Source: an uncultured Blautia sp. (GTDB lineage Bacteria > Bacillota > Clostridia > Lachnospirales > Lachnospiraceae). From it: a DNA stretch of 12,345 nt. This document shows positions 2,530 through 12,345 of the stretch, piece by piece; position 1 is the first letter of the stretch; each line of letters opens with the position of its first letter. Location: NCBI GenBank assembly GCA_900552095.1, contig URYM01000031.1, forward strand, positions 1 to 12,345. The letters are read 5' to 3'. A program made the translations under genes and the position numbers. The notes under the pieces are model-generated. The model worked only from the letters and a program-made list of their open reading frames with translations, did not search any database and was not told where the DNA came from.

Positions 2530-2576
2530 GGATTTGTGAGTTTTCACAGAACAACAGAATCCAAGATACAATACAC

Positions 2577-2736
2577 AAGGTACGCGGAGGTAATAGCCGT
2601 GTTTAATAGGGAATGCAGTGAACAATCTGCAGCAGCCCGCTTTACTGTGATAATTATGCTGTCTTCAGGATGCCACTGGCGCTTCGGGCGCTGGGAAGGC
2701 GAAGACAGTGAAGATTTCAGCCAGGAGACCTGCCTT
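2577..2736 (+). promoter_or_regulatory. cobalamin (B12) riboswitch aptamer
   Basis: Most conserved parts of the cobalamin aptamer are present in order. P1 is AAGGTA (2577-2582) pairing with TGCCTT (2731-2736). The core block is AATAGGGAA (2605-2613). A hairpin follows, TGCAG (2614-2618) with CTGCA (2627-2631), then CCCGC (2636-2640) and ACTGTGAT (2644-2651). An 8-bp helix, CTGTCTTC (2659-2666) with GAAGACAG (2701-2708), encloses an arm that opens GCCACTG (2672-2678) and closes TGGGAAGGC (2692-2700). The 3' end holds the B12 box AGCCAGGAGACCTGCC (2719-2734). In known cases cobalamin binding to this RNA switches off downstream expression, typically of B12 synthesis, corrinoid uptake or cobalt transport genes. 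Here the next genes are a Nik/Dpp-type importer and a methyltransferase. The terminator at 2833-2863 is the likely output. Confidence 0.95.
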
Positions 2737-2832
2737 ATGTATGCAATTGTTTTTTCGGTGGGGAAAAAGCGGTGCAGGGTAAAAGGCAGATTTTCAGGAG
2801 CAGAGAAAAAGGCTGCATTTATTTTGCATACG

Positions 2833-2863
2833 AAGACACTATCGGAAGGTAGTGTCTTTTTTT
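2833..2863 (+). terminator. intrinsic terminator, likely riboswitch expression platform
   Basis: AAGACACTA (2833-2841) pairs with TAGTGTCTT (2850-2858), and T2842-G2849 and C2843-G2848 can close a GGAA tetraloop. Seven T residues follow (2857-2863). It lies about 97 bases after the aptamer and 57 bases before the binding-protein start codon, where a B12-dependent transcription terminator would be expected. It would also stop readthrough from the upstream amino acid transporter operon. Confidence 0.88.
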
Positions 2864-2920
2864 CTTTCATAGGATTACATCCGATGAAACAGGTATCGAG
2901 CGAAATCAAAGGAGGAAAAC

Positions 2921-4486
2921 ATGAAGAAAAAACTGATGAGTGCAATTCTGGCGGCGGCGCTGGGGCTGTCTCTGCTGGCCGGCTGCGGACAGGAGAAGAC
3001 GGAGGAACCGAAAGCAAATGAGGAAAAGCAGATGGTTCTGGGATCTGTCCGGGACATGATCCCGGGAGAGGGGGACTGTTTCTATGTCAATCTTTCGGCC
3101 CATGTCTGGGAACCGCTGGTGGTGAACAACAATCATACGCTGGAGCCCTGCCTGGCAGAGTCCTGGGAGTACAATGATGACTGCACAGAGTGGACATTCC
3201 ATCTGGTGCAGAATGCGGAGTTTACGGATGGAGTAAAATTTAACGCAGATGTGTGCCTGCAGAACATTGAGCGCTATAAAAAAGGTCCTCTGACTTCCAC
3301 GTATACGTCTCTTAGCATTGATAAATCTTTCCCCAACCTGACCGGGATGGAGAAGGTGGACGACTATACCGTGAAATTTACCTTCGGTGAGCCGATCACT
3401 ACGCTGGATGCACTGCTGGGAGATTACGGAAGTCCCATGATCAGCCCGAACTGCTTTGACCCGGAGACGGGAGAAATCACATCCACAGTGATCGGAACAG
3501 GACGCTATATCATAGACGAGCATGTACAGGATCAGTATGCGACATTTAAGAGAAATGATAATTACTGGGGAGAAAATCCGGGCAAACTGGACAGCTATCG
3601 GGTCAACTGTATTCCGGACTCCGAGGCTCGCTATTCTGCGCTGGTATCCGGGGAGATTATGGGTCTGATGGATAACGGAGCGATTATGGTGGATACGGCA
3701 GTGAATTTAACCGAGTCAGATGATAATTTTGTAATCGAACCTACGAAGAGCCACATGACCCATTATATGTATGTGAACGGCTCCAAAGAGTATCTGGGAG
3801 ATGTGCGCCTGCGTCAGGCAATCAGCTATGCCATCGACCGGGATCTTTTAAATGAGACTCTCTACGCGGGACTCTGCTATCCGGCTTACAGTGCGCTCAG
3901 CAATCAGACTCCTCTTTATAAAGATATACAGGGGACTTATGATCTAGAGAAGGCAAAAGAACTGGCCAACGAGGTCCTTCAGGGGAAACGGCTGGAAACC
4001 ACAATGATCCTGGGACAGAGAGTGGTGGACGGCTATCCCTGTAAAGCAATGGCAGAGTATATTCAGTCAGCTCTGGCGGAGATTGGCATTGATATGAAGA
4101 TTGAGATCGTGGACAATGCGGTAAATACGGAGAGACTGAAATCCGGTGACTATGATTTCTGTCTGACGGTAACCGGATTAAACAGTGCGGATCCCTATGC
4201 GACGCTGTACAGCTGGATGGACAGCGAGGGAAGCTACGTGACGCAGTACCACTGGAATTATTCCAATGAAGAGGTGGATCAGCTGTTAGACCAGGTGCTT
4301 AATGAGAAAGATCCGGAGAAACGTGCAGAGATTTACGGCCGTCTGCAGGAAATCTCCGCAGAAGAGCTGCCGGTGATCCCGCTTCTTTACTATGTAAATG
4401 TAAATATTCATAATAAGGCAGTTACCGGATATACATCAGAACTGTTTGACGGGGTAAGCATTCCTACCCTGGAGTGGGCGCAGTAA
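2921..4486 (+). CDS. Nik/Dpp-type ABC transporter, substrate-binding lipoprotein (B12-regulated)
   Basis: Extracellular solute-binding lipoprotein of SBP family 5 (NikA/DppA/OppA group). The signal peptide ends in LLAGC with Cys22 as lipid anchor. AAAGGAGG (2908-2915) lies 5 bases before the ATG. Family landmarks are VWEPLVVNN (62-70), LAESWE (79-84), WTFHL (91-95), IGTGRY (191-196), NYWGE (214-218) and RLRQAISYAIDR (296-307). At 521 aa it fits the family. By eye it resembles NikA along its length, including IPDSEARYSAL (231-241). Against E. coli NikA as I remember it, the nickel-site residues (Arg137, Trp398, Tyr402, His416) are not kept: the TGLNSADPY stretch (418-426) replaces the one holding Trp398 and Tyr402. 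The ligand is therefore probably not the one NikA binds. The riboswitch points to cobalt, a cobalt chelate or a corrinoid. A peptide remains possible. Confidence 0.9.
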   Translation: MKKKLMSAILAAALGLSLLAGCGQEKTEEPKANEEKQMVLGSVRDMIPGEGDCFYVNLSAHVWEPLVVNNNHTLEPCLAESWEYNDDCTEWTFHLVQNAEFTDGVKFNADVCLQNIERYKKGPLTSTYTSLSIDKSFPNLTGMEKVDDYTVKFTFGEPITTLDALLGDYGSPMISPNCFDPETGEITSTVIGTGRYIIDEHVQDQYATFKRNDNYWGENPGKLDSYRVNCIPDSEARYSALVSGEIMGLMDNGAIMVDTAVNLTESDDNFVIEPTKSHMTHYMYVNGSKEYLGDVRLRQAISYAIDRDLLNETLYAGLCYPAYSALSNQTPLYKDIQGTYDLEKAKELANEVLQGKRLETTMILGQRVVDGYPCKAMAEYIQSALAEIGIDMKIEIVDNAVNTERLKSGDYDFCLTVTGLNSADPYATLYSWMDSEGSYVTQYHWNYSNEEVDQLLDQVLNEKDPEKRAEIYGRLQEISAEELPVIPLLYYVNVNIHNKAVTGYTSELFDGVSIPTLEWAQ

Positions 4487-4494
4487 AAGCGCCC
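4476..4494 (+). other. short GC-rich hairpin across the binding-protein stop codon
   Basis: GGGCGC (4476-4481) pairs with GCGCCC (4489-4494) around a 7-base loop that contains the stop codon. TTCCCC follows rather than a T-run, so full termination is unlikely. It lies between a binding-protein gene and its permease gene, as does the hairpin at 1002-1056 in the amino acid operon. A role in message stability or partial attenuation is inferred. Confidence 0.45.
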
Positions 4495-4522
4495 TTCCCC
4501 GGCCGGGATGAGAGGAAAAAGG

Positions 4523-5473
4523 ATGGAAATTATAAAATATATAGGGAAAAAACTTCTTACACTGATCCCGGTATTATTCGGAATTACGGTGCTGGCTTTC
4601 GTTTTGGGAGTCAGCGCCCCGGGGGATCCGGTGGAAGCAATCTTAAATCCGGATGGAACGCAGATCGTCAGCGAACGGGACTATGCCATTGTGCGGGAGC
4701 GCCTGGGACTTGACGATCCCATACCGGTGCAATATGTAAAATGGCTGAAAAATGCAGTGAGCGGTGAATTTGGACGCTCTTTTTTTACGAACAAAGAAAT
4801 TGAAGATCAGATTGCATACCGTCTGCCTTATACCGTGAAGCTGGCCTGTTTCGGGATGGCGCTCACGGTTCTTTTCGGGATTGGAGGAGGGCTTCTTATG
4901 GCAGTCTGCCGGGACACCTGGGTGGATCATCTGCTCCGCACAGTCAGTACCCTCTTTTTGTCAGTCCCGGGATTTTGGCTTGCGATCCTCATGATCCTGA
5001 TTTTCTGTGAACAGCTCCACTGGCTTCCCACCAGCGGGCTTCACGGTTTTTTGTCGTATATCATGCCGGGAATCACTGTATCTGTCTCAACAATAGGGGT
5101 CTGTGCCCGCCTGACTAGGACATCGGTGCTGGATGAGATTGGGAGGCAGTATGTGACGGTGGCCAGTGCAAAAGGGATGAAAGCCCGGATGGTTACGCTG
5201 CGTCATGCTTTCCGCAATTCCCTGATCCCGATCACCACATTTTTGGGGAATTATTTTGCGGGAATCCTGGGAGGCTCTTCGGTGGCGGAGGTGATTTTCA
5301 ACATTCCGGGAATCGGCAATTATGCTGTTTCTGCCGTGCAGTCCCGGGATTATCTGGTTGTACAGGCGTATGTACTTTTTACCGGTCTGGTGTACGTGGT
5401 GATGAATCTGGTCATTGACCTTTTATATCTGGTGATTAATCCGAAGATACGGGTGGGGGAGAAGGCAGGATGA
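4523..5473 (+). CDS. Nik/Dpp-type ABC transporter, permease 1 (NikB/DppB-like)
   Basis: First of two inner-membrane channel subunits. The start at 4523 is preferred over an in-frame ATG at 4508: AGAGGA (4511-4516) gives it proper spacing, and the protein then begins MEIIKYIGKKLLTLIPV as NikB/DppB proteins do, at 316 aa against about 314 for NikB. Segments include TM1 (10-31), the post-TM1 SAPGDP motif (31-36), WLKNAVSGEFGRSF (74-87), hydrophobic spans near 104-128, 138-162, 178-197 and 280-304, and the EAA-type cytoplasmic loop around 204-236 (SAKGM, HAFRNSLIP), which contacts an ATPase. The stop overlaps the next start (ATGA at 5470-5473), indicating translational coupling. It should pair with the permease encoded next to form the heterodimeric channel. 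Confidence 0.92.
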   Translation: MEIIKYIGKKLLTLIPVLFGITVLAFVLGVSAPGDPVEAILNPDGTQIVSERDYAIVRERLGLDDPIPVQYVKWLKNAVSGEFGRSFFTNKEIEDQIAYRLPYTVKLACFGMALTVLFGIGGGLLMAVCRDTWVDHLLRTVSTLFLSVPGFWLAILMILIFCEQLHWLPTSGLHGFLSYIMPGITVSVSTIGVCARLTRTSVLDEIGRQYVTVASAKGMKARMVTLRHAFRNSLIPITTFLGNYFAGILGGSSVAEVIFNIPGIGNYAVSAVQSRDYLVVQAYVLFTGLVYVVMNLVIDLLYLVINPKIRVGEKAG

Positions 5474-6294
5474 AGAAAAAAATGAAGATGGGCACGATTC
5501 TGGCTTTTGCCGTGCTGGGGATGATTCTGCTTATGAGTATTCTGGCACCCCTTATTGCCCCTTATGATCCGTTAAAGATTGATATGGCCAATGCTCTGGA
5601 GGGGCCCAGCCGGGAACATCTGCTGGGAACGGATAATATCGGGCGGGATCTTCTGAGCAGAGTGATCTATGGGGGCCGCCAGTCCATGGTGCTGGCTGCA
5701 GTGGCAACCAGCCTTTCCCTGGCTCTCGGCTGCCTCATTGGTATGGTAGCCGGATATTTCGGCGGATGGGTGGATCTGGTGATCACATCCATTTCCAATA
5801 TTTTTCAGGGGCTTCCCGGCATGACGATGATGATCGCCATTGCCGGACTGATGGGAAGCGGGGTAGAAAGCATGCTCCTGGCGCTTGTTCTTACTTCCTG
5901 GGTGAGTTTTTCCCGTCTGGTCAGGGGAGAAGTGATGAAGCTGAAGGAAGAAGCTTTTGTGGAAGGACTGCGGGGACTGGGGGCAGGTCATATCCGGATT
6001 CTTTTCTGCCATGTGGCGCCGAATCTGATCAGCAGCATAGTGATTATTTTTGCCACGAGGATCGCCAGTTCCATTCTGTCTGTGGCGTCCTTAAGTTTTC
6101 TGGGGCTGGGGCTTCAGCCGCCGGCACCGGACTGGGGCGTGATGATCAGCGATGCCCGGATGTACTACCGGAGCAGCCCGCTTCTGGCAATTGCGCCGGG
6201 GGTATGTATCGTACTTTTGTCCCTGAGCATTAATGTGATTGCAGATTGGCTGAGAGACTGTTTCGATGTGCGGCGTGACAGTATAAAGGAGTGA
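5470..6294 (+). CDS. Nik/Dpp-type ABC transporter, permease 2 (NikC/DppC-like)
   Basis: Second channel subunit, 274 aa (NikC is about 277). The N-terminal membrane segment spans roughly 8-30 and is followed by LAPLIAPYDP. The family motif LLGTDNIGRDLLSR is at 51-64. Further hydrophobic spans are near 72-96, 116-130, 134-148, 187-212 and 238-256. The EAA loop is at about 160-185 (EEAFVEGLRGLGAGHI, then HVAPN). The C-terminal APDWGVMI motif (219-226) is typical of DppC/NikC. Translation is coupled to the previous gene through an ATGA overlap. The gap to the next ATPase gene is 7 bases. Nothing in the sequence fixes the substrate. Confidence 0.92.
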   Translation: MKKKMKMGTILAFAVLGMILLMSILAPLIAPYDPLKIDMANALEGPSREHLLGTDNIGRDLLSRVIYGGRQSMVLAAVATSLSLALGCLIGMVAGYFGGWVDLVITSISNIFQGLPGMTMMIAIAGLMGSGVESMLLALVLTSWVSFSRLVRGEVMKLKEEAFVEGLRGLGAGHIRILFCHVAPNLISSIVIIFATRIASSILSVASLSFLGLGLQPPAPDWGVMISDARMYYRSSPLLAIAPGVCIVLLSLSINVIADWLRDCFDVRRDSIKE

Positions 6295-6301
6295 GGCGAA
6301 A

Positions 6302-7246
6302 ATGGGAAAAGATATTCGGGTGGAACATTTTAATGTCTGCTTTCAGACTGCTCTGGGGCCGGTTCACGCGGTGCGGGATGCCAGCACGGTGTTCGAGAGC
6401 GGAAAAGTGACGGGAATGATCGGGGAGAGCGGAAGTGGAAAGTCTGTTCTCGGCATGGGAATCCTGAAACTTCTGGCGGCCAATGCTTACACGGAAGGCA
6501 GCTGCTGGTACGGGGAGGATGAGATCAGCAGCTGGAGTGAAAAACAGATGGAAGGACTGCGGGGCGATCAGATTGCCCTGATCCCGCAGAACCCGGCGGA
6601 GGCGCTGGATCCGGTCATCCGGATTAAAAAGCAGCTGATCGAGGCAGTTACCGTTCACGGCAAAGGAAAAAGACAGGAGGCAGAGGCACAGTATGAGCGG
6701 CTTATGAAGCGGTTTGGTTTTCCGGACAGCGGGACGATAGGGAGGAAATATTCCTTTCAGCTAAGCGGCGGAATGAACCAGAGAGTCATTTCTGTGCTGG
6801 GCCTTATGAACCGGCCGGAGTGGGTGATTGCGGACGAACCGACCAAGGGGCTGGATGCCATTTTGCGCCGGCAGGTCTTTCAGGTTCTGCGGGAGATCGC
6901 AAAGCGGGATACGAAGAGTATGATTGTGATTACCCATGATGTTATGCTGGCGGGAAGGCTCTGCCAGAAACTGCTGGTGCTCTATAAAGGAGAGATTCTG
7001 GAGCAGGGGGACACGGATAAGATTATGGAAGATCCGCTTCATCCTTATACCCGGGGACTGATCGGCGCACTGCCCTCCAGGGGAATGAAGCCGATCCCCC
7101 TTCCGGCAAAAGAGAGGGAGGGAAAGGAGGCGGGCTGTGTTTTTTATCCCCGATGTGAGCGGGCCTGCCCGCGGTGTGCAGAAGAAAAGCCGGGAGACTT
7201 CCTGTGTGGAGACGGCCGGAAAGTGAGGTGCTTTCTTTATGCTTAA
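6302..7246 (+). CDS. Nik/Dpp-type ABC transporter, ATP-binding protein 1 (DppD/NikD-like)
   Basis: First of two cytoplasmic ATPases that drive the importer, 314 aa. Walker A is GESGSGKS (41-48), the Q-loop is Gln96 (IPQNPAEALDP), the signature is LSGGM (154-158), Walker B is WVIADEP (174-180) and the switch His is His212. The C-terminal oligopeptide-transporter domain begins at HPYTRGLIGALP (247-258) and carries six cysteines (279, 285, 289, 292, 302, 310). Some DppD-type proteins use the equivalent cysteines for an iron-sulfur cluster, so one is possible here; this is from family knowledge and not shown by the sequence alone. AAAGGAG at 6285-6291, at the end of the permease gene, is the ribosome binding site. 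The 3' end overlaps the next gene by 8 bases. Confidence 0.93.
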   Translation: MGKDIRVEHFNVCFQTALGPVHAVRDASTVFESGKVTGMIGESGSGKSVLGMGILKLLAANAYTEGSCWYGEDEISSWSEKQMEGLRGDQIALIPQNPAEALDPVIRIKKQLIEAVTVHGKGKRQEAEAQYERLMKRFGFPDSGTIGRKYSFQLSGGMNQRVISVLGLMNRPEWVIADEPTKGLDAILRRQVFQVLREIAKRDTKSMIVITHDVMLAGRLCQKLLVLYKGEILEQGDTDKIMEDPLHPYTRGLIGALPSRGMKPIPLPAKEREGKEAGCVFYPRCERACPRCAEEKPGDFLCGDGRKVRCFLYA

Positions 7247-8006
7247 AGTAGAAAAGCTGAACAAACATTTCATAAGCGGCGTGATAAAAAGGCACCGGAC
7301 AGATGCGGTAAAAGAAGTTTCCTTTGAGATACCGGAGGGGAAGATCCTGGGGCTTGCGGGAAACAGCGGCTGCGGGAAATCCACAGTAGCACGGCTGCTG
7401 ATGCGGCTCATTCAGCCGGATTCAGGGCAGGTTTTTCTGGATGGGGAAGAGATAAGCGCACTTTCCATGGCCCAGATGAAGGCCAGGCGGACGAAAATGC
7501 AGATTATTTTCCAGCATCCGGAGAGTTCTCTGGATCCTCATAAAAAAATTCTGAGCAGCCTTCTGGAACCGATGACGATCCACAGGATCGGTGCAAACCG
7601 GGAAGAAAGGATTGCCCGGATCGAGCAGCAGTTTGAGCGGGTTGGACTGAAAAATAATCTGTTTGACCGTTATCCGCATCAGATCAGCGGCGGGGAAGCG
7701 CAGAGGATCATTATTTCCCGGGCGATGACGCTGGATCCCCGGGTGCTGATTTTAGATGAGCCTACTTCCATGCTGGATGTGTCGATCCAGGCACATGTTA
7801 TGAACATTTTAAAAGATCTTCAAAAAGAAAAAAATATGACTTATCTCTTTATTTCCCACGACCTGGAGGTTCTGCACTGGTTCTGCGATGAAATCTGTGT
7901 GATGAAAGAAGGGGAGATCGTGGAGCGGGGCGGAAGGGATGAGATTGTAAAAAATCCGAAGCATCCGTTTACGAGAGAACTGGTGGAGAGCTTCTGCAGC
8001 TTTTAA
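7239..8006 (+). CDS. Nik/Dpp-type ABC transporter, ATP-binding protein 2 (NikE/DppF-like)
   Basis: Second ATPase, forming a heterodimer with the preceding one, 255 aa. Walker A is GNSGCGKST (41-49), the Q-loop is Gln92 (IIFQHPESSLDP), the signature is ISGGE (149-153), Walker B is VLILDEP (169-175) and the switch His is His207 (ISHD). It ends soon after HPFTRELVESF and lacks the C-terminal cysteine domain of its partner, so it is closer in length to NikE (about 268 aa) than to DppF. The start overlaps the previous gene by 8 bases with only a weak GTGAGG-like ribosome binding site, which suggests translational coupling. The methyltransferase gene follows after 16 bases. Confidence 0.92.
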   Translation: MLKVEKLNKHFISGVIKRHRTDAVKEVSFEIPEGKILGLAGNSGCGKSTVARLLMRLIQPDSGQVFLDGEEISALSMAQMKARRTKMQIIFQHPESSLDPHKKILSSLLEPMTIHRIGANREERIARIEQQFERVGLKNNLFDRYPHQISGGEAQRIIISRAMTLDPRVLILDEPTSMLDVSIQAHVMNILKDLQKEKNMTYLFISHDLEVLHWFCDEICVMKEGEIVERGGRDEIVKNPKHPFTRELVESFCSF

Positions 8007-8022
8007 GAAGAAGGAGAGAACG

Positions 8023-8694
8023 ATGATACAGGAAATCGATTTTGCGGGCCTCTGGAGGGAGGAATTAAAAAATCAGGAGGGAACGTACAGTCTTCGCATG
8101 ACGGATGACGCAGCAGAGCGGGCGTTCTGGCACAGCTTTATGGAAAAGAAAGACGTTTATAAACAGGATGGCTGGGCGGCCAGGATTACTCCCGTTCTGC
8201 GGGAACTGATTCTCCCCCGCTGCCCGGAGACTATCCTGGAGATCGGGCCGGGGTGGGGGAATTTTACAGCAGAGCTGGCAGAGTGCTGCAGGCAGCTTTC
8301 CTGTCTGGATATTTCCCCGGACGTACTTTCCTTTCTGAAGGAGAAGGTGCCACAGAAGGAGGGAAAACCGGAAATCCGTACTATCTGCAGCAAGTGGGAA
8401 GACTTTGTGCCGGAAAAGACATACGATGTGGTTTTTGGCTATAACTGCTTCTACCGGATGCTGGATCTGAAAGACTGCATCAGAAAAATGAATGCGGCCG
8501 CGGGAAAACTGTGTGTGATGGGGATGGGGACAGGAGAGAGAAAGATCTATCTTTATTTTGTAAATCTGCTTTTTCAGATGGGGATCGCAGCGGAGGTGCG
8601 CGTTATTCCTCTGGATGAGGAGGAGGGAAGCGGTTCCAGCCTTACAAGACGCCTGGGGGTGCTGGTGTACTGGGAGCCGGTGAAAGAGCCATGA
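8023..8694 (+). CDS. class I SAM-dependent methyltransferase, last gene of the B12-regulated operon
   Basis: Small soluble Rossmann-fold methyltransferase of 223 aa. The SAM-binding motif I is ILEIGPGWGNF (71-81). An acidic residue at the end of strand 2 (CLDIS, Asp96) should bind the SAM ribose. Motif IV lies near VVFGYNCFYRM (136-146). The N-terminal 60 residues are polar and helical-looking and may form the substrate lid. It lacks features of the tetrapyrrole methylases that build the corrin ring, so it is not a cobalamin-pathway precorrin methyltransferase. AAGGAG (8011-8016) gives good spacing from a gap of only 16 bases after the ATPase gene, so it belongs to the transporter operon. Its substrate is unknown. 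Modification of a metal chelator, a corrinoid or the imported ligand is a guess from context. Confidence 0.85.
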   Translation: MIQEIDFAGLWREELKNQEGTYSLRMTDDAAERAFWHSFMEKKDVYKQDGWAARITPVLRELILPRCPETILEIGPGWGNFTAELAECCRQLSCLDISPDVLSFLKEKVPQKEGKPEIRTICSKWEDFVPEKTYDVVFGYNCFYRMLDLKDCIRKMNAAAGKLCVMGMGTGERKIYLYFVNLLFQMGIAAEVRVIPLDEEEGSGSSLTRRLGVLVYWEPVKEP

Positions 8695-8849: not shown

Positions 8850-9560
8850 ATGAAAAAGTTAGAACAGCTGTACGAAGGCAAGGCTAAGAAAGTATTTGCA
8901 ACGGATGTGGAAGGTATTGTGATCGTAGATTACAAGGATGATGCCACCGCTTTCAACGGTGAGAAGAAGGGAACCATCGTAGGAAAAGGCGTAGTAAACA
9001 ACCGGATGACTAATTATGTATTTCAGCAGTTGGAAAAAGAAGGCGTTCCCACACATTTCGTAGAGGAACTGTCTGACCGTGAGACGGCAGTAAAGAAGGT
9101 AAGCATTGTTCCCCTGGAAGTAATTGTGAGAAATGTGGCTGCCGGAAGCTTTTCCAAGAGAATGGGCGTGGAAGAGGGAAGAGAACTTCTCTGCCCGATC
9201 CTGGAGTTCAGCTATAAGAACGACGACCTGGGCGATCCCTTCATCAACGATGATTACGCACTGGCTCTCGGACTGGCTACCCAGGAAGAGATTGATACCA
9301 TTAAAAAATATACCAGAAAAGTGAATGAATGCCTGAAATCCTATTTCCTGAATGCGGGCATGAAACTGATCGACTTCAAGATCGAGTTCGGCAAACTGCC
9401 GGATGGAACCATCATTCTGGCTGACGAAGTATCTCCGGATACCTGCCGTCTGTGGGATGTGAATACCAATGAGAAGCTGGACAAAGACCGTTTCCGCAGA
9501 GATATGGGAAATGTGGAAGAGGCCTACAACGAAGTATTCAAGCGTCTGGGACTGGCGTAA
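8850..9560 (+). CDS. purC: phosphoribosylaminoimidazole-succinocarboxamide (SAICAR) synthase
   Basis: Cytosolic enzyme of de novo purine synthesis that joins CAIR and aspartate using ATP to give SAICAR. It is 236 aa, matching the bacterial single-domain form (E. coli 237). Family landmarks are [10 protein letters not shown] at the N-terminus for nucleotide binding, NNRMTNYVF (50-58), [14 protein letters not shown] (91-104), LIDFKIEFG (173-181) and [13 protein letters not shown] (191-203), the last carrying acidic metal-binding residues. No key motif is missing. The ribosome binding site is GAAAGGTG at 8834-8841. purB, which converts the product SAICAR to AICAR, follows after 27 bases, so the two consecutive steps are co-transcribed. 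Confidence 0.97.
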
Positions 9561-9587
9561 GGGAAACTGCCGGAAGGAGAAACAAAC

Positions 9588-11021
9588 ATGAGCAACGACC
9601 GTTATGTAAGCCCTCTGTCTGAGCGCTATGCCAGCAGAGAGATGCAGTATATTTTTTCGCCGGATATGAAGTTCCGCACCTGGAGAAGGCTGTGGATCGC
9701 TCTGGCTGAGACAGAAAAGGAACTGGGACTGCCCATTACCCAGGAGCAGATCGATGAACTGAAAAGCCATGCGGATGATATTAATTACGAGGTGGCAAAG
9801 GAGAGAGAGCGCCAGGTGCGCCATGATGTCATGTCCCACGTATACGCTTACGGCGTACAGTGTCCCAAGGCGAAAGGGATCATCCATCTGGGTGCCACTT
9901 CCTGTTATGTGGGTGATAATACGGATATTATCATTATGCGGGAAGCGCTGCAGCTGGTAAAGAAGAAACTGGTAAATGTGATCGCGGAACTGTCGAAATT
10001 TGCGGATCAGTGGAAGGCTCAGCCGACCCTGGCGTTTACACATTTTCAGCCGGCACAGCCCACGACGGTGGGGAAGAGGGCGACTCTGTGGACGCAGGAA
10101 TTCCTGATGGATCTGGAAGATCTGGATTATGTTTTAGACAGCTTAAAGCTTCTGGGCAGCAAGGGAACTACAGGAACGCAAGCCAGCTTCTTGGAGCTTT
10201 TTGACGGAGATCAGGAAACCATTGACCGGATCGATCCCATGATCGCAGAGAAGATGGGATTTAAGGCATGCTATCCGGTATCAGGGCAGACCTACTCCCG
10301 GAAAGTGGATACCCGCGTGGCCAATATTCTGGCAGGAATCGCAGCCAGTGCCCATAAGATGTCCAATGATATCCGCCTTCTGCAGCATTTAAAAGAGGTC
10401 GAGGAGCCTTTTGAGAAGAGCCAGATTGGTTCTTCTGCCATGGCATACAAGAGAAATCCCATGCGCAGTGAGCGGATCGCCTCTCTTTCCAGGTATGTGA
10501 TGATCGACGCGCTGAACCCGGCCATTACTTCGGCTACACAGTGGTTTGAGCGGACGCTGGATGACTCTGCCAATAAGAGACTGTCCATTCCGGAAGGATT
10601 CCTGGCGATTGACGGCATTTTGGATCTGTGCCTGAATGTGGTGGATGGCCTGGTGGTATATCCCAAGGTGATCGAGAAGCGTCTGCGCTCCGAACTGCCC
10701 TTTATGGCCACTGAAAATATCATGATGGATGCGGTGAAAGCAGGCGGTGACCGCCAGGAGCTTCACGAGCGGATCCGGGAATTGTCCATGGAGGCAGGAC
10801 GCATGGTAAAGGTGGAAGGAAAAGAGAACAATCTTCTGGAGCTGATCGCTGCAGATCCGGCCTTTAACATGACGCTGGAAGAACTGCAGAAGACCATGGA
10901 ACCCTCCCGCTATACGGGGCGTTCCGCGGTACAGGTGGAAGCATTCCTGAAGAATGTGGTAAATCCGGTTCTGAAAGAGAACGAAGCGCTGCTCGGCGTA
11001 AAAGCAGAGATTAATGTATAA
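9588..11021 (+). CDS. purB: adenylosuccinate lyase, human-like subtype
   Basis: Fumarase/aspartase-superfamily lyase that removes fumarate from SAICAR (giving AICAR) and from adenylosuccinate (giving AMP). It is 477 aa, longer than the B. subtilis enzyme (about 430) and close to human ADSL (484). Motifs are RHDVMSH (78-84), LGATSCYVGDNTD (101-113), THFQPAQP (151-158) with His152 as the likely catalytic His, and the mobile signature loop GSSAMAYKRNPM (281-292) with Ser283 as the likely catalytic Ser. The C-terminal half has WFERTLDDSAN and ELPFMATENI. Much of this closely follows the human enzyme as I remember it. AAGGAG (9574-9579) lies 8 bases upstream. A strong terminator follows the stop codon. 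Confidence 0.97.
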   Translation: MSNDRYVSPLSERYASREMQYIFSPDMKFRTWRRLWIALAETEKELGLPITQEQIDELKSHADDINYEVAKERERQVRHDVMSHVYAYGVQCPKAKGIIHLGATSCYVGDNTDIIIMREALQLVKKKLVNVIAELSKFADQWKAQPTLAFTHFQPAQPTTVGKRATLWTQEFLMDLEDLDYVLDSLKLLGSKGTTGTQASFLELFDGDQETIDRIDPMIAEKMGFKACYPVSGQTYSRKVDTRVANILAGIAASAHKMSNDIRLLQHLKEVEEPFEKSQIGSSAMAYKRNPMRSERIASLSRYVMIDALNPAITSATQWFERTLDDSANKRLSIPEGFLAIDGILDLCLNVVDGLVVYPKVIEKRLRSELPFMATENIMMDAVKAGGDRQELHERIRELSMEAGRMVKVEGKENNLLELIAADPAFNMTLEELQKTMEPSRYTGRSAVQVEAFLKNVVNPVLKENEALLGVKAEINV

Positions 11022-11036
11022 AATATAGAAGACAGG

Positions 11037-11073
11037 AAAACGCCCGGAAGGAAAGAAAGCTTCCGGGCGTTTT
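11037..11073 (+). terminator. strong intrinsic terminator after purB
   Basis: CGCCCGGAAG (11041-11050) pairs perfectly with CTTCCGGGCG (11060-11069) around a 9-base loop. Flanking AAAA (11037-11040) and TTTT (11070-11073) extend the pairing to 14 bp. The T-tract is short but the stem is very stable. It ends the purC-purB transcript and separates it from purA. Confidence 0.9.
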
Positions 11074-11099
11074 GACGTGAAAGGAATTGCAAGAAAAGG

Positions 11100-11128
11100 T
11101 TGAGAATTGCGGCAATCCGTTGTATACT
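11100..11128 (+). promoter_or_regulatory. distal candidate promoter of purA
   Basis: TTGAGA at 11100-11105, a 17-base spacer and TATACT at 11123-11128 give a good sigma-A promoter with a start near 11135. That would leave a leader of about 134 bases containing the AT-rich inverted repeat at 11176-11206. Confidence 0.6.
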
Positions 11129-11175
11129 TACAATGTATGTGATATTTATTAAAACAGATAATATGACAGAAGTAC

Positions 11176-11206
11176 TTTATAAGTAATAATAAGTTTTACT
11201 TATAAA
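11176..11206. repeat. AT-rich 11-bp inverted repeat in the purA promoter region
   Basis: TTTATAAGTAA (11176-11186) and TTACTTATAAA (11196-11206) are perfect inverted copies separated by 9 bases. A further ATAAGT lies in the spacer (11189-11194). The right arm overlaps the -35 region of the proximal purA promoter, so it could be an operator. In RNA from the distal promoter it would form a weak AU hairpin followed by a purine-rich run, so it is not a terminator on this strand. No known purine-regulator box is recognised. Confidence 0.5.
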
Positions 11207-11222
11207 AAAAGTATGGTACAAT
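11195..11222 (+). promoter_or_regulatory. proximal candidate promoter of purA (extended -10)
   Basis: TTTACT at 11195-11200, a 16-base spacer and TACAAT at 11217-11222 preceded by TGG (11214-11216) form an extended -10 promoter. The start would be near 11229, with a leader of about 40 bases. It lies within and just after the inverted repeat, so binding there would block it. Confidence 0.55.
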
Positions 11223-11268
11223 AAAAATATCTTTTTGATTGAATTGATACGTAGGAGGATGTAAAAGG

Positions 11269-12345
11269 ATGATTAAGGCAGTTGTAGGAGCAAACTGGGG
11301 AGATGAAGGTAAGGGTAAGATTACCGATATGCTGGGCAAGGAAGCAGATATTATCGTGCGTTTCCAGGGCGGTGCCAATGCCGGCCATACGATCATTAAT
11401 GATTATGGAAAGTTTGCGCTGCACACCCTGCCGTCAGGCGTATTTTATGACCACACCACCAGTGTGATCGGAAATGGCGTTGCGCTGAATATTCCGGTGC
11501 TTTTTCATGAGATCAAGAGCATTGTGGATCAGGGCGTGCCCATGCCGAAGATCAAGGTTTCCGACAGAGCTCAGATGGTAATGTCGTACCATGTGCTCTT
11601 TGATCAGTATGAGGAGGAACGTCTCGGAGGAAAATCTTTTGGTTCCACCAAATCCGGAATTGCACCGTTCTATTCTGATAAATATGCGAAGATCGGATTC
11701 CAGGTCAGTGAACTTTTCGAGGACGAAGAGGCGCTGAAAGAGAAAGTGGCAAGAGTCTGCGAGACTAAAAATGTGCTGCTGGAGCATCTGTACCACAAAC
11801 CGCTCCTGGATCCGGAGAAGATTTTTGAAGAACTGCAGACGTATAAAGAGATGGTTGCACCGTATGTCTGTGATGTTTCTTCTTTCCTCTGGAACGCGTG
11901 GAAGGAAGGAAAAGAAATTCTGCTGGAGGGACAGCTGGGGACACTGAAGGATCCGGATCACGGCATTTACCCGATGGTAACTTCATCCTCCACCCTGGCA
12001 GCTTATGGAGCGATCGGAGCCGGAGTGCCGCCCTACGCGATCGAAAAAGTAATCACTGTCTGCAAAGCCTACTCCAGCGCAGTGGGAGCAGGAGCTTTCG
12101 TATCTGAGATCTTCGGCGAGGAAGCCGATGAGCTGAGACGCCGCGGTGGTGACGGCGGAGAGTTTGGAGCGACTACAGGGCGCCCCAGAAGAATGGGATG
12201 GTTTGACTGTGTGGCTTCCAAGTATGGCTGCCGTCTGCAGGGAACTACTGACGTGGCTTTTACCGTTCTCGATGTTCTGGGTTATCTGGATGAGATTCCT
12301 GTCTGCGTGGGCTATGAGATCGACGGCCAGGTTACGACCGACTTC
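11269..12345 (+). CDS. purA: adenylosuccinate synthetase, divergent subtype, 3' end cut off
   Basis: Cytosolic GTP-dependent ligase that joins IMP and aspartate to adenylosuccinate, the first step to AMP; PurB completes it. The frame is open from ATG 11269 to the window end (359 codons), and about 60-70 residues are probably missing. AGGAGG (11253-11258) sits 10 bases upstream. The P-loop GANWGDEGKGK (7-17) keeps the catalytic Asp12 and Lys15, and GGANAGHT (34-41) keeps the catalytic His40. ATTGRPRRMGW (301-311) is the late Arg-rich loop. Compared with E. coli PurA from memory, several sites differ: GSTKSGIAP (125-133) for GTTGRGIGP, AKIG for ARRG (140-143), GQLGT (221-225) for GAQGT, and TVLDVL (332-337) for TKLDVL in the guanine-recognition motif. 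The retained catalytic Asp argues against the phage-type PurZ. Confidence 0.95.
   Translation, partial: MIKAVVGANWGDEGKGKITDMLGKEADIIVRFQGGANAGHTIINDYGKFALHTLPSGVFYDHTTSVIGNGVALNIPVLFHEIKSIVDQGVPMPKIKVSDRAQMVMSYHVLFDQYEEERLGGKSFGSTKSGIAPFYSDKYAKIGFQVSELFEDEEALKEKVARVCETKNVLLEHLYHKPLLDPEKIFEELQTYKEMVAPYVCDVSSFLWNAWKEGKEILLEGQLGTLKDPDHGIYPMVTSSSTLAAYGAIGAGVPPYAIEKVITVCKAYSSAVGAGAFVSEIFGEEADELRRRGGDGGEFGATTGRPRRMGWFDCVASKYGCRLQGTTDVAFTVLDVLGYLDEIPVCVGYEIDGQVTTDF

Follow-up and report, generated by a model that had tools for sequence, protein, structure and literature searches.

A B12 riboswitch-led Nik-type importer operon with a recurrent methyltransferase in an uncultured Blautia, possibly for cobalt supply

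In the available parts of the papers cited here, the genes of cobalamin regulons fall into the classes of B12 synthesis, transport of B12 or its precursors, cobalt transport, and isozymes (PMC3766115). Nik-type operons with a predicted B12 riboswitch have been noted in Clostridium tetani and Desulfitobacterium hafniense, whose importers are separated in the same report from NikA orthologs called Ni-specific (PMC2667541), and the CbtJKL system of Sinorhizobium meliloti is an ATP-binding cassette (ABC) importer under a B12 riboswitch whose sequence suggested cobalamin but which carries Co(II) (PMC7689651). We analyzed a 12,345-nucleotide stretch of contig URYM01000031.1 from an uncultured Blautia sp. 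(GCA_900552095.1; hereafter, the window, meaning the whole stretch), in which a Cobalamin riboswitch heads an operon for a Nik/Opp-type ABC importer and a class I S-adenosylmethionine (SAM)-dependent methyltransferase. Compared by arrangement alone, the window resembles C. tetani and D. hafniense in having a Nik-type operon immediately preceded by a B12 riboswitch; no methyltransferase is mentioned in the available part of PMC2667541, whereas the window operon has one. CbtJKL differs in its BtuF-like binding protein, where the window has an SBP_bac_5 protein, and again the available part of PMC7689651 mentions no methyltransferase. Escherichia coli NikABCDE (L111) matches the window importer in gene order and family, but the window binding protein lacks R97, R137, Y402 and H416, and the riboswitch and methyltransferase are added. 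The CntABCDF staphylopine importer, an SBP_bac_5 importer of a metal-chelate complex, is like the window importer in family; the window protein nevertheless lies far below the cut-off of the CntA model (190.8 bits against 800), and its operon has a B12 riboswitch instead of a recognised opine metallophore gene, none being recognised among the window genes. The locus is a known kind of operon carrying a new, recurrent component, the methyltransferase, and a search of literature titles and abstract beginnings found no description of this methyltransferase family beside cobalt or B12 genes.

A full-length riboswitch aptamer and an intrinsic terminator precede the operon, this layout is conserved in relatives, and the methyltransferase family is associated with cobalt and B12 genes as well as with genomes that make the corrin ring. 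The importer is best read as serving the economy of cobalt or corrinoids. We tentatively propose, with somewhat less than even confidence, that this is a B12-repressed cobalt-supply operon. When corrinoid is sufficient, the aptamer would fold and the terminator would halt transcription, whereas a shortage of corrinoid would allow both importer and methyltransferase to be made. What the importer takes up would most likely be cobalt, probably complexed by a small organic molecule and destined for the corrin ring, which would add one more B12-controlled route to CbiMNQO and a Fec/Btu-type importer, and the methyltransferase would most likely make or alter a small molecule for cobalt acquisition or handling. 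The features concerned are these:

2561..2751, plus strand: Cobalamin riboswitch aptamer (RF00174; Rfam covariance model, model positions 1-189 of 189, full length)
2832..2859, plus strand: intrinsic terminator hairpin of 12 pairs with a T-rich tail, the likely expression platform
2921..4486, plus strand: solute-binding lipoprotein, SBP_bac_5 (Nik/Opp family; PF00496, 264 bits)
4508..5473, plus strand: permease, NikB/Opp2B-like (PF00528 (BPD_transp_1), PF19300; Opp2B 322.7 bits, cut-off 350)
5470..6294, plus strand: permease, NikC/Opp1C-like (PF00528 (BPD_transp_1), PF12911; Opp1C 267.6 bits, cut-off 350)
6302..7246, plus strand: ABC ATPase with oligo_HPY C-terminus (PF00005, PF08352)
7239..8006, plus strand: second ABC ATPase (PF00005)
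8023..8694, plus strand: class I SAM-dependent methyltransferase, short form, 223 residues (PF13649, PF08242, PF08241)

The six genes run co-directionally from 2921 to 8694 with intergenic gaps of 21, -4, 7, -8 and 16 nucleotides, and Pfam confirms the anatomy given in the initial annotation (a lipoprotein, two permeases, two ATPases and a class I methyltransferase). That annotation had also placed a near-complete B12 aptamer and a terminator before the operon, in a stretch starting at 2577, and both are borne out. The RF00174 model matched with 101.6 bits (E = 5.7e-25), above its gathering score of 31.5, over an aptamer that contains position 2577 and is full length rather than near-complete; a core and B12-box pattern lies inside it at 2672-2734, and Cobalamin was the sole Rfam family to reach its cut-off in the window. 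The terminator stem at 2832-2859 (-16.3 kcal/mol, z score -5.3) was equalled by none of 200 shuffles. Hairpins with a T-rich tail 3' of the aptamer were found, in a scan with no shuffle control, at 11 of the 12 Nik-type loci scanned, L001 being the miss. Terminators behind B12 riboswitches and strong induction under corrinoid starvation are known, according to the available part of PMC4285132. We rejected a single anti-terminator model: 2803-2813 can pair with 2854-2864, and the B12-box strand can pair with ~2784-2795, and no one scheme of switching stood out. A sigma-70 scan gave 6 sites against 6.2 expected, and we claim no promoter.

Every relative of the window binding protein that we examined (13 with the window itself, 36-81% identity) belongs to an operon headed by a B12 riboswitch, so the layout is not due to chance. 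These are the window itself, L001-L006, L023, L055, L061 and L108-L110, nine having been reached via the methyltransferase and three via the binding protein. Among 397 genomes of the family of the L001 genome, in which the best three candidates per genome were scored and absences are not firm, the binding protein was present in five, each time with the riboswitch (L001, L002, L108-L110). Two of these five genomes carry the methyltransferase in the operon, G008 carries it elsewhere, beside a FecBCD importer, and G160 and G364 gave no hit at E 1e-15, which argues that the importer can do without it. More distant Nik-type operons of Bacillaceae (L010, L014 and L019, with binding proteins 23-25% identical to that of the window) are also riboswitch-led, with the methyltransferase directly behind in L014 and separated from them by one other gene in L010 and by two in L019. 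Co-occurrence of riboswitch and methyltransferase, which the initial annotation had put forward for scoring, is uneven: the importer retains the riboswitch more strictly, and the methyltransferase is a looser partner.

Homology alone would file the window importer as nickel or dipeptide, a label that the initial annotation had doubted. The binding protein scored 202.7 bits against the NikA model TIGR02294 (cut-off 393) and 105.1 bits against the DppA model (cut-off 1005), reaching neither, and the window permeases, closer than the binding protein to the cut-offs of nickel/cobalt Opp models, yet stayed below them. Twenty related binding proteins, 17 of them riboswitch-linked Nik-type proteins (the 13 relatives above with L010, L012, L014 and L019), were aligned together with NikA and DppA from E. 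coli. The proposed chelate site of NikA comprises Tyr402, Arg137, Arg97 and His416 in the available part of PMC2667541, and none of the 17 proteins keeps R97, R137, Y402 or H416. The window has A, G, T and V at the Y402, R137, R97 and H416 columns, respectively, and an alternative alignment, of the binding-protein profile with solved structures, gives A, D, T and G, the chelate residues being absent both ways. Asp408 of DppA, which we take to be a residue of dipeptide binders, is replaced in 17 of 17, by N in the window. The binding protein of L030, which adjoins a methyltransferase and has no riboswitch hit, keeps NikA R137, W100 and W398. With these residues replaced and the model cut-offs missed, the doubt was well placed, and the sequences do not support a nickel or dipeptide label for the importer.

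A nickel importer that has its B12 riboswitch by historical accident would agree with the profile search against solved structures, which ranks NikA proteins first, but we hold it very improbable given the score under the NikA cut-off, the absence of all four chelate residues named in the available part of PMC2667541, and the riboswitch in every one of the 13 relatives. We also regard as improbable a peptide or amino-acid importer that offsets lost B12-dependent metabolism, in which the methyltransferase would be a substitute enzyme that needs no B12. B12 riboswitch regulons are known to include isozymes of B12-dependent enzymes (PMC3766115, available part), and G002 and G003 each have a second, different riboswitch-led SBP_bac_5 importer (L091 2745-4454, minus strand; L094 210-2096, plus strand) with no methyltransferase among the open reading frames (ORFs) of the ~5 kb examined at each. 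On the other side stand the replacement of aspartate 408 and the distribution of the methyltransferase among Bacilli described below.

The methyltransferase is the more unusual component of the operon. A search for the METHYLTRANSFERASE family matched 135 proteins. At 223 residues against a median of 280 among 81 aligned, the window protein retains the family motifs E-I-G-P-G-W-G-N and N-C-x-Y-R, plus R25, D29, E32, F35 and W36, and its AlphaFold model (mean predicted local distance difference test score 91) has the standard class I fold, with N-methyltransferases such as NodS and NTMT1 as nearest folds. In a tree of the 81 proteins the window clusters with four clostridial Nik-linked methyltransferases (96/86), and the Nik label was gained or lost at least four times across well-supported branches, indicating that the pairing of Nik-type genes and methyltransferase is not one unchanged inheritance. 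CpaM, the corrinoid protein-associated methyltransferase (NF043040), is a class I methyltransferase with a corrinoid link by name; the window protein reached 25.8 bits against its cut-off of 180, and the L070 and L080 proteins, at 35.5 and 35.6 bits, did no better with it than with generic methyltransferase models, and we rejected this assignment. The window protein stands alone, whereas in three relatives the methyltransferase is the C-terminal part of one frame of ~590-620 residues, behind an N-terminal LysR DNA-binding and effector domain; in each, this fusion closes the riboswitch-led operon:

L001 8981-10834: LysR-methyltransferase fusion ORF
L002 9071-10840: LysR-methyltransferase fusion ORF
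L003 9071-10843: LysR-methyltransferase fusion ORF

Of 148 relatives of the methyltransferase confirmed in a species-genome scan, we examined the best 80 as loci, these being the closest ones and not a random draw; their context classes were assigned by hand from tblastn, ORF clusters and reading, with Pfam on examples only. Thirteen loci had a Nik-type importer, 20 a FecBCD-type importer (L007 on the basis of a single adjacent ATPase ORF), two a NicO permease (L018 and L046, both behind Cobalamin riboswitches) and one CbiMQO; 23 lay in a cbi biosynthesis operon, five stood alone behind a Cobalamin riboswitch and 16 had none of these, giving a cobalt or B12 setting at 64 of 80. Rfam covered 34 of the 80 loci and none of the 23 in cbi operons, the other 46 being judged by a pattern screen alone, whose background was 14 hits per 1.55 Mb of base-shuffled sequence. 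An Rfam-confirmed riboswitch stood at the head of 12 of the 13 Nik-type loci (the exception is L030), of both NicO loci and of each of the five solo loci (L031 of Paenibacillus chitinolyticus type, L033 of Priestia abyssalis type, L043, L047 and L050, near 9464-10864), where the methyltransferase, directly behind the riboswitch, looks like a B12-regulon member by itself. Among 12 FecBCD-type loci tested, a riboswitch precedes the importer-methyltransferase genes in six (L008, L009, L036, L059, L066 and L076); in L048 it lies between the methyltransferase and the importer genes, in L069 two riboswitches near 2.4-2.9 kb precede an upstream co-directional importer cluster, and Rfam found none in L026, L034, L041 and L054. 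At L076, a group II intron (4214-8092; RF02001, RF01998, RF00029; 482-residue ORF) separates the Cobalamin riboswitch from the importer genes, and L066, named as the same species, has no intron ORF at that place.

Two further settings bear on the substrate. In L022 (4449-10843), nitrile hydratase beta and alpha subunits, CbiM, CbiQ, an ATPase and a [2Fe-2S] thioredoxin-like protein precede the methyltransferase, with no riboswitch found by Rfam within the locus sequence examined; nitrile hydratases are often cobalt enzymes, so this setting favours metal over corrinoids. In L070, from Lysinibacillus, the methyltransferase follows cobyric acid synthase within a cbi operon, which favours B12 synthesis at large. 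As a separate observation, in the Peribacillus-type loci L021, L024, L027, L028, L032 and L035 (near 9300-10800) the methyltransferase comes after a small protein (HEAT_2 in L024), with no cobalt or B12 neighbour in view.

Genomes with the methyltransferase mostly carry CbiD (71 of 77; 25 of 28 plus 46 of 49), in counts that, like those for CbiM, leave out L060, L062 and L063. In an even sample of 398 Bacilli, CbiD was found in 14 of 14 genomes with the methyltransferase versus 127 of 384 without (Fisher p = 3e-7), and in 16 genomes of one family in 11 of 11 versus 1 of 5 (p = 0.003), by tests that ignore shared ancestry; in the methyltransferase samples (the 397-genome set and the Bacilli) the best six candidates per genome were scored and absences are not firm. 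Restriction of the methyltransferase to CbiD genomes in the Bacilli sample is the opposite of what would be expected of a stand-in for missing B12, and so argues against the peptide importer with a substitute enzyme. CbiM was found in 55 of the 77 genomes, that of L019 being counted from a fragment (positions 1-70 of 205). Among the 71 with CbiD, CbiM was missing from 9 of 14 with the methyltransferase beside FecBCD versus 7 of 57 others (p = 2e-4); the seven include L010, L012 and L014, with riboswitch-led Nik-type genes, and L018, with a riboswitch-led NicO. At L012 no ATPase gene was seen, and the methyltransferase lies apart from the Nik-type genes.

The main rival to cobalt supply is an importer of corrinoids or their precursors (cobinamide, part of the nucleotide loop or a tetrapyrrole precursor), with a methyltransferase acting on corrinoids. 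We consider it somewhat unlikely, while several observations suit it: the B12 riboswitch at the operon head, the L070 methyltransferase behind cobyric acid synthase, the retention of the methyltransferase in six genomes without a CbiD hit, a riboswitch-led importer relative in G008, which also lacks CbiD, and the FecBCD-type binding proteins tested, which belong to PF01497. BtuF presumably belongs to PF01497 too. Against it, the L001 genome, G003 and G006 already hold riboswitch-led PF01497-type importers (in G003 and G006 the binding proteins were tested), the methyltransferase also occurs beside metal-ion importers (NicO, CbiM/CbiQ), with nitrile hydratase close by in L022, and FecBCD-methyltransferase operons associate with missing CbiM. 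CbtJKL, in the available part of PMC7689651, sets a precedent for a B12-riboswitch importer first taken for a cobalamin importer and then found to carry Co(II).

Several findings weigh against a cobalt-supply operon. Sixteen of the 80 methyltransferase loci have no cobalt or B12 neighbour, the tests on CbiD and CbiM leave shared ancestry aside, and G160 and G364 carry the riboswitch and importer with no methyltransferase hit at that threshold. The six of 77 methyltransferase genomes without CbiD are those of L007, L008, L034, L037, L069 and L077, five of which have the methyltransferase beside FecBCD-type genes, a setting that fits corrinoids better. The nine clostridial genomes that pair the Nik-type importer with the methyltransferase (L001-L006, L023, L055, L061) all have CbiD, but all nine also have CbiM, so that a second cobalt route would be unneeded there. 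G008, whose riboswitch-led importer relative (L110) is 39% identical, gave neither a CbiD nor a CbiM hit, and if its assembly is complete the importer there serves no ring synthesis. In G010, a NicO permease lies just behind another riboswitch, so the Nik-type operon is not the sole candidate there; NicO was above its cut-off in 8 of 38 genomes.

The initial annotation had also drawn an argument from the lack of CbiMNQO and BtuFCD genes in the window, and this did not hold. The genome of L001 (Murimonas intestini DSM 26524), the closest relative by binding protein (81% identical), has one Cobalamin riboswitch before CbiM, CbiN and CbiQ (L089) and another before a PF01497 binding protein and FecCD permease (L087), so that the absence of such importers from a 12-kb window is uninformative. 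In that genome the Nik-type operon is at least the third B12-riboswitch uptake locus, and riboswitch-led PF01497 binding proteins occur in G003 and G006 too (L096, L100, L101). Separately, at L086 a Cobalamin riboswitch lies at 5315-5501 on the minus strand, and the nearest same-strand genes downstream, an iron-only hydrogenase-like gene (PF02906) and a large ORF, are more than 1 kb off. The substrates that the initial annotation had listed (cobalt, a cobalt chelate, a corrinoid or its precursor) are narrowed somewhat towards cobalt, solely via the other partners of the methyltransferase.

Elsewhere in the window, an amino-acid-type ABC importer (SBP_bac_3, permease, ATPase) lies upstream of the operon at 110-2499, and SAICAR synthetase, an adenylosuccinate-lyase-type lyase and adenylosuccinate synthetase lie downstream at 8850-12345. 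Positions 1-47 resemble what we take to be the end of a Nextera sequencing adapter, and the contig edge there is probably an artefact; a short minus-strand ORF (1-282) runs into this adapter-like start.

Taking these contexts together, we raise a broader hypothesis that we consider distinctly unlikely as a whole, namely that the methyltransferase represents an unrecognised cobalt-acquisition family that produces, or completes, a small molecule able to bind cobalt (or one that carries cobalt in the cytosol), and that unrelated Nik-type, FecBCD-type, NicO and CbiMQO importers were recruited separately, many of them under B12 riboswitches. If so, the window operon would serve the B12-controlled uptake of a cobalt chelate, and the fused LysR protein of three relatives would sense the same molecule. 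To our knowledge, the ways in which corrinoid-making gut bacteria acquire cobalt beyond CbiMNQO are poorly known. The link of the methyltransferase family to cobalt and B12 genes spans Firmicutes and Methanomassiliicoccales, and provides a concrete candidate, open to testing, for a step still missing from cobalt acquisition or from the metabolism of corrinoids.

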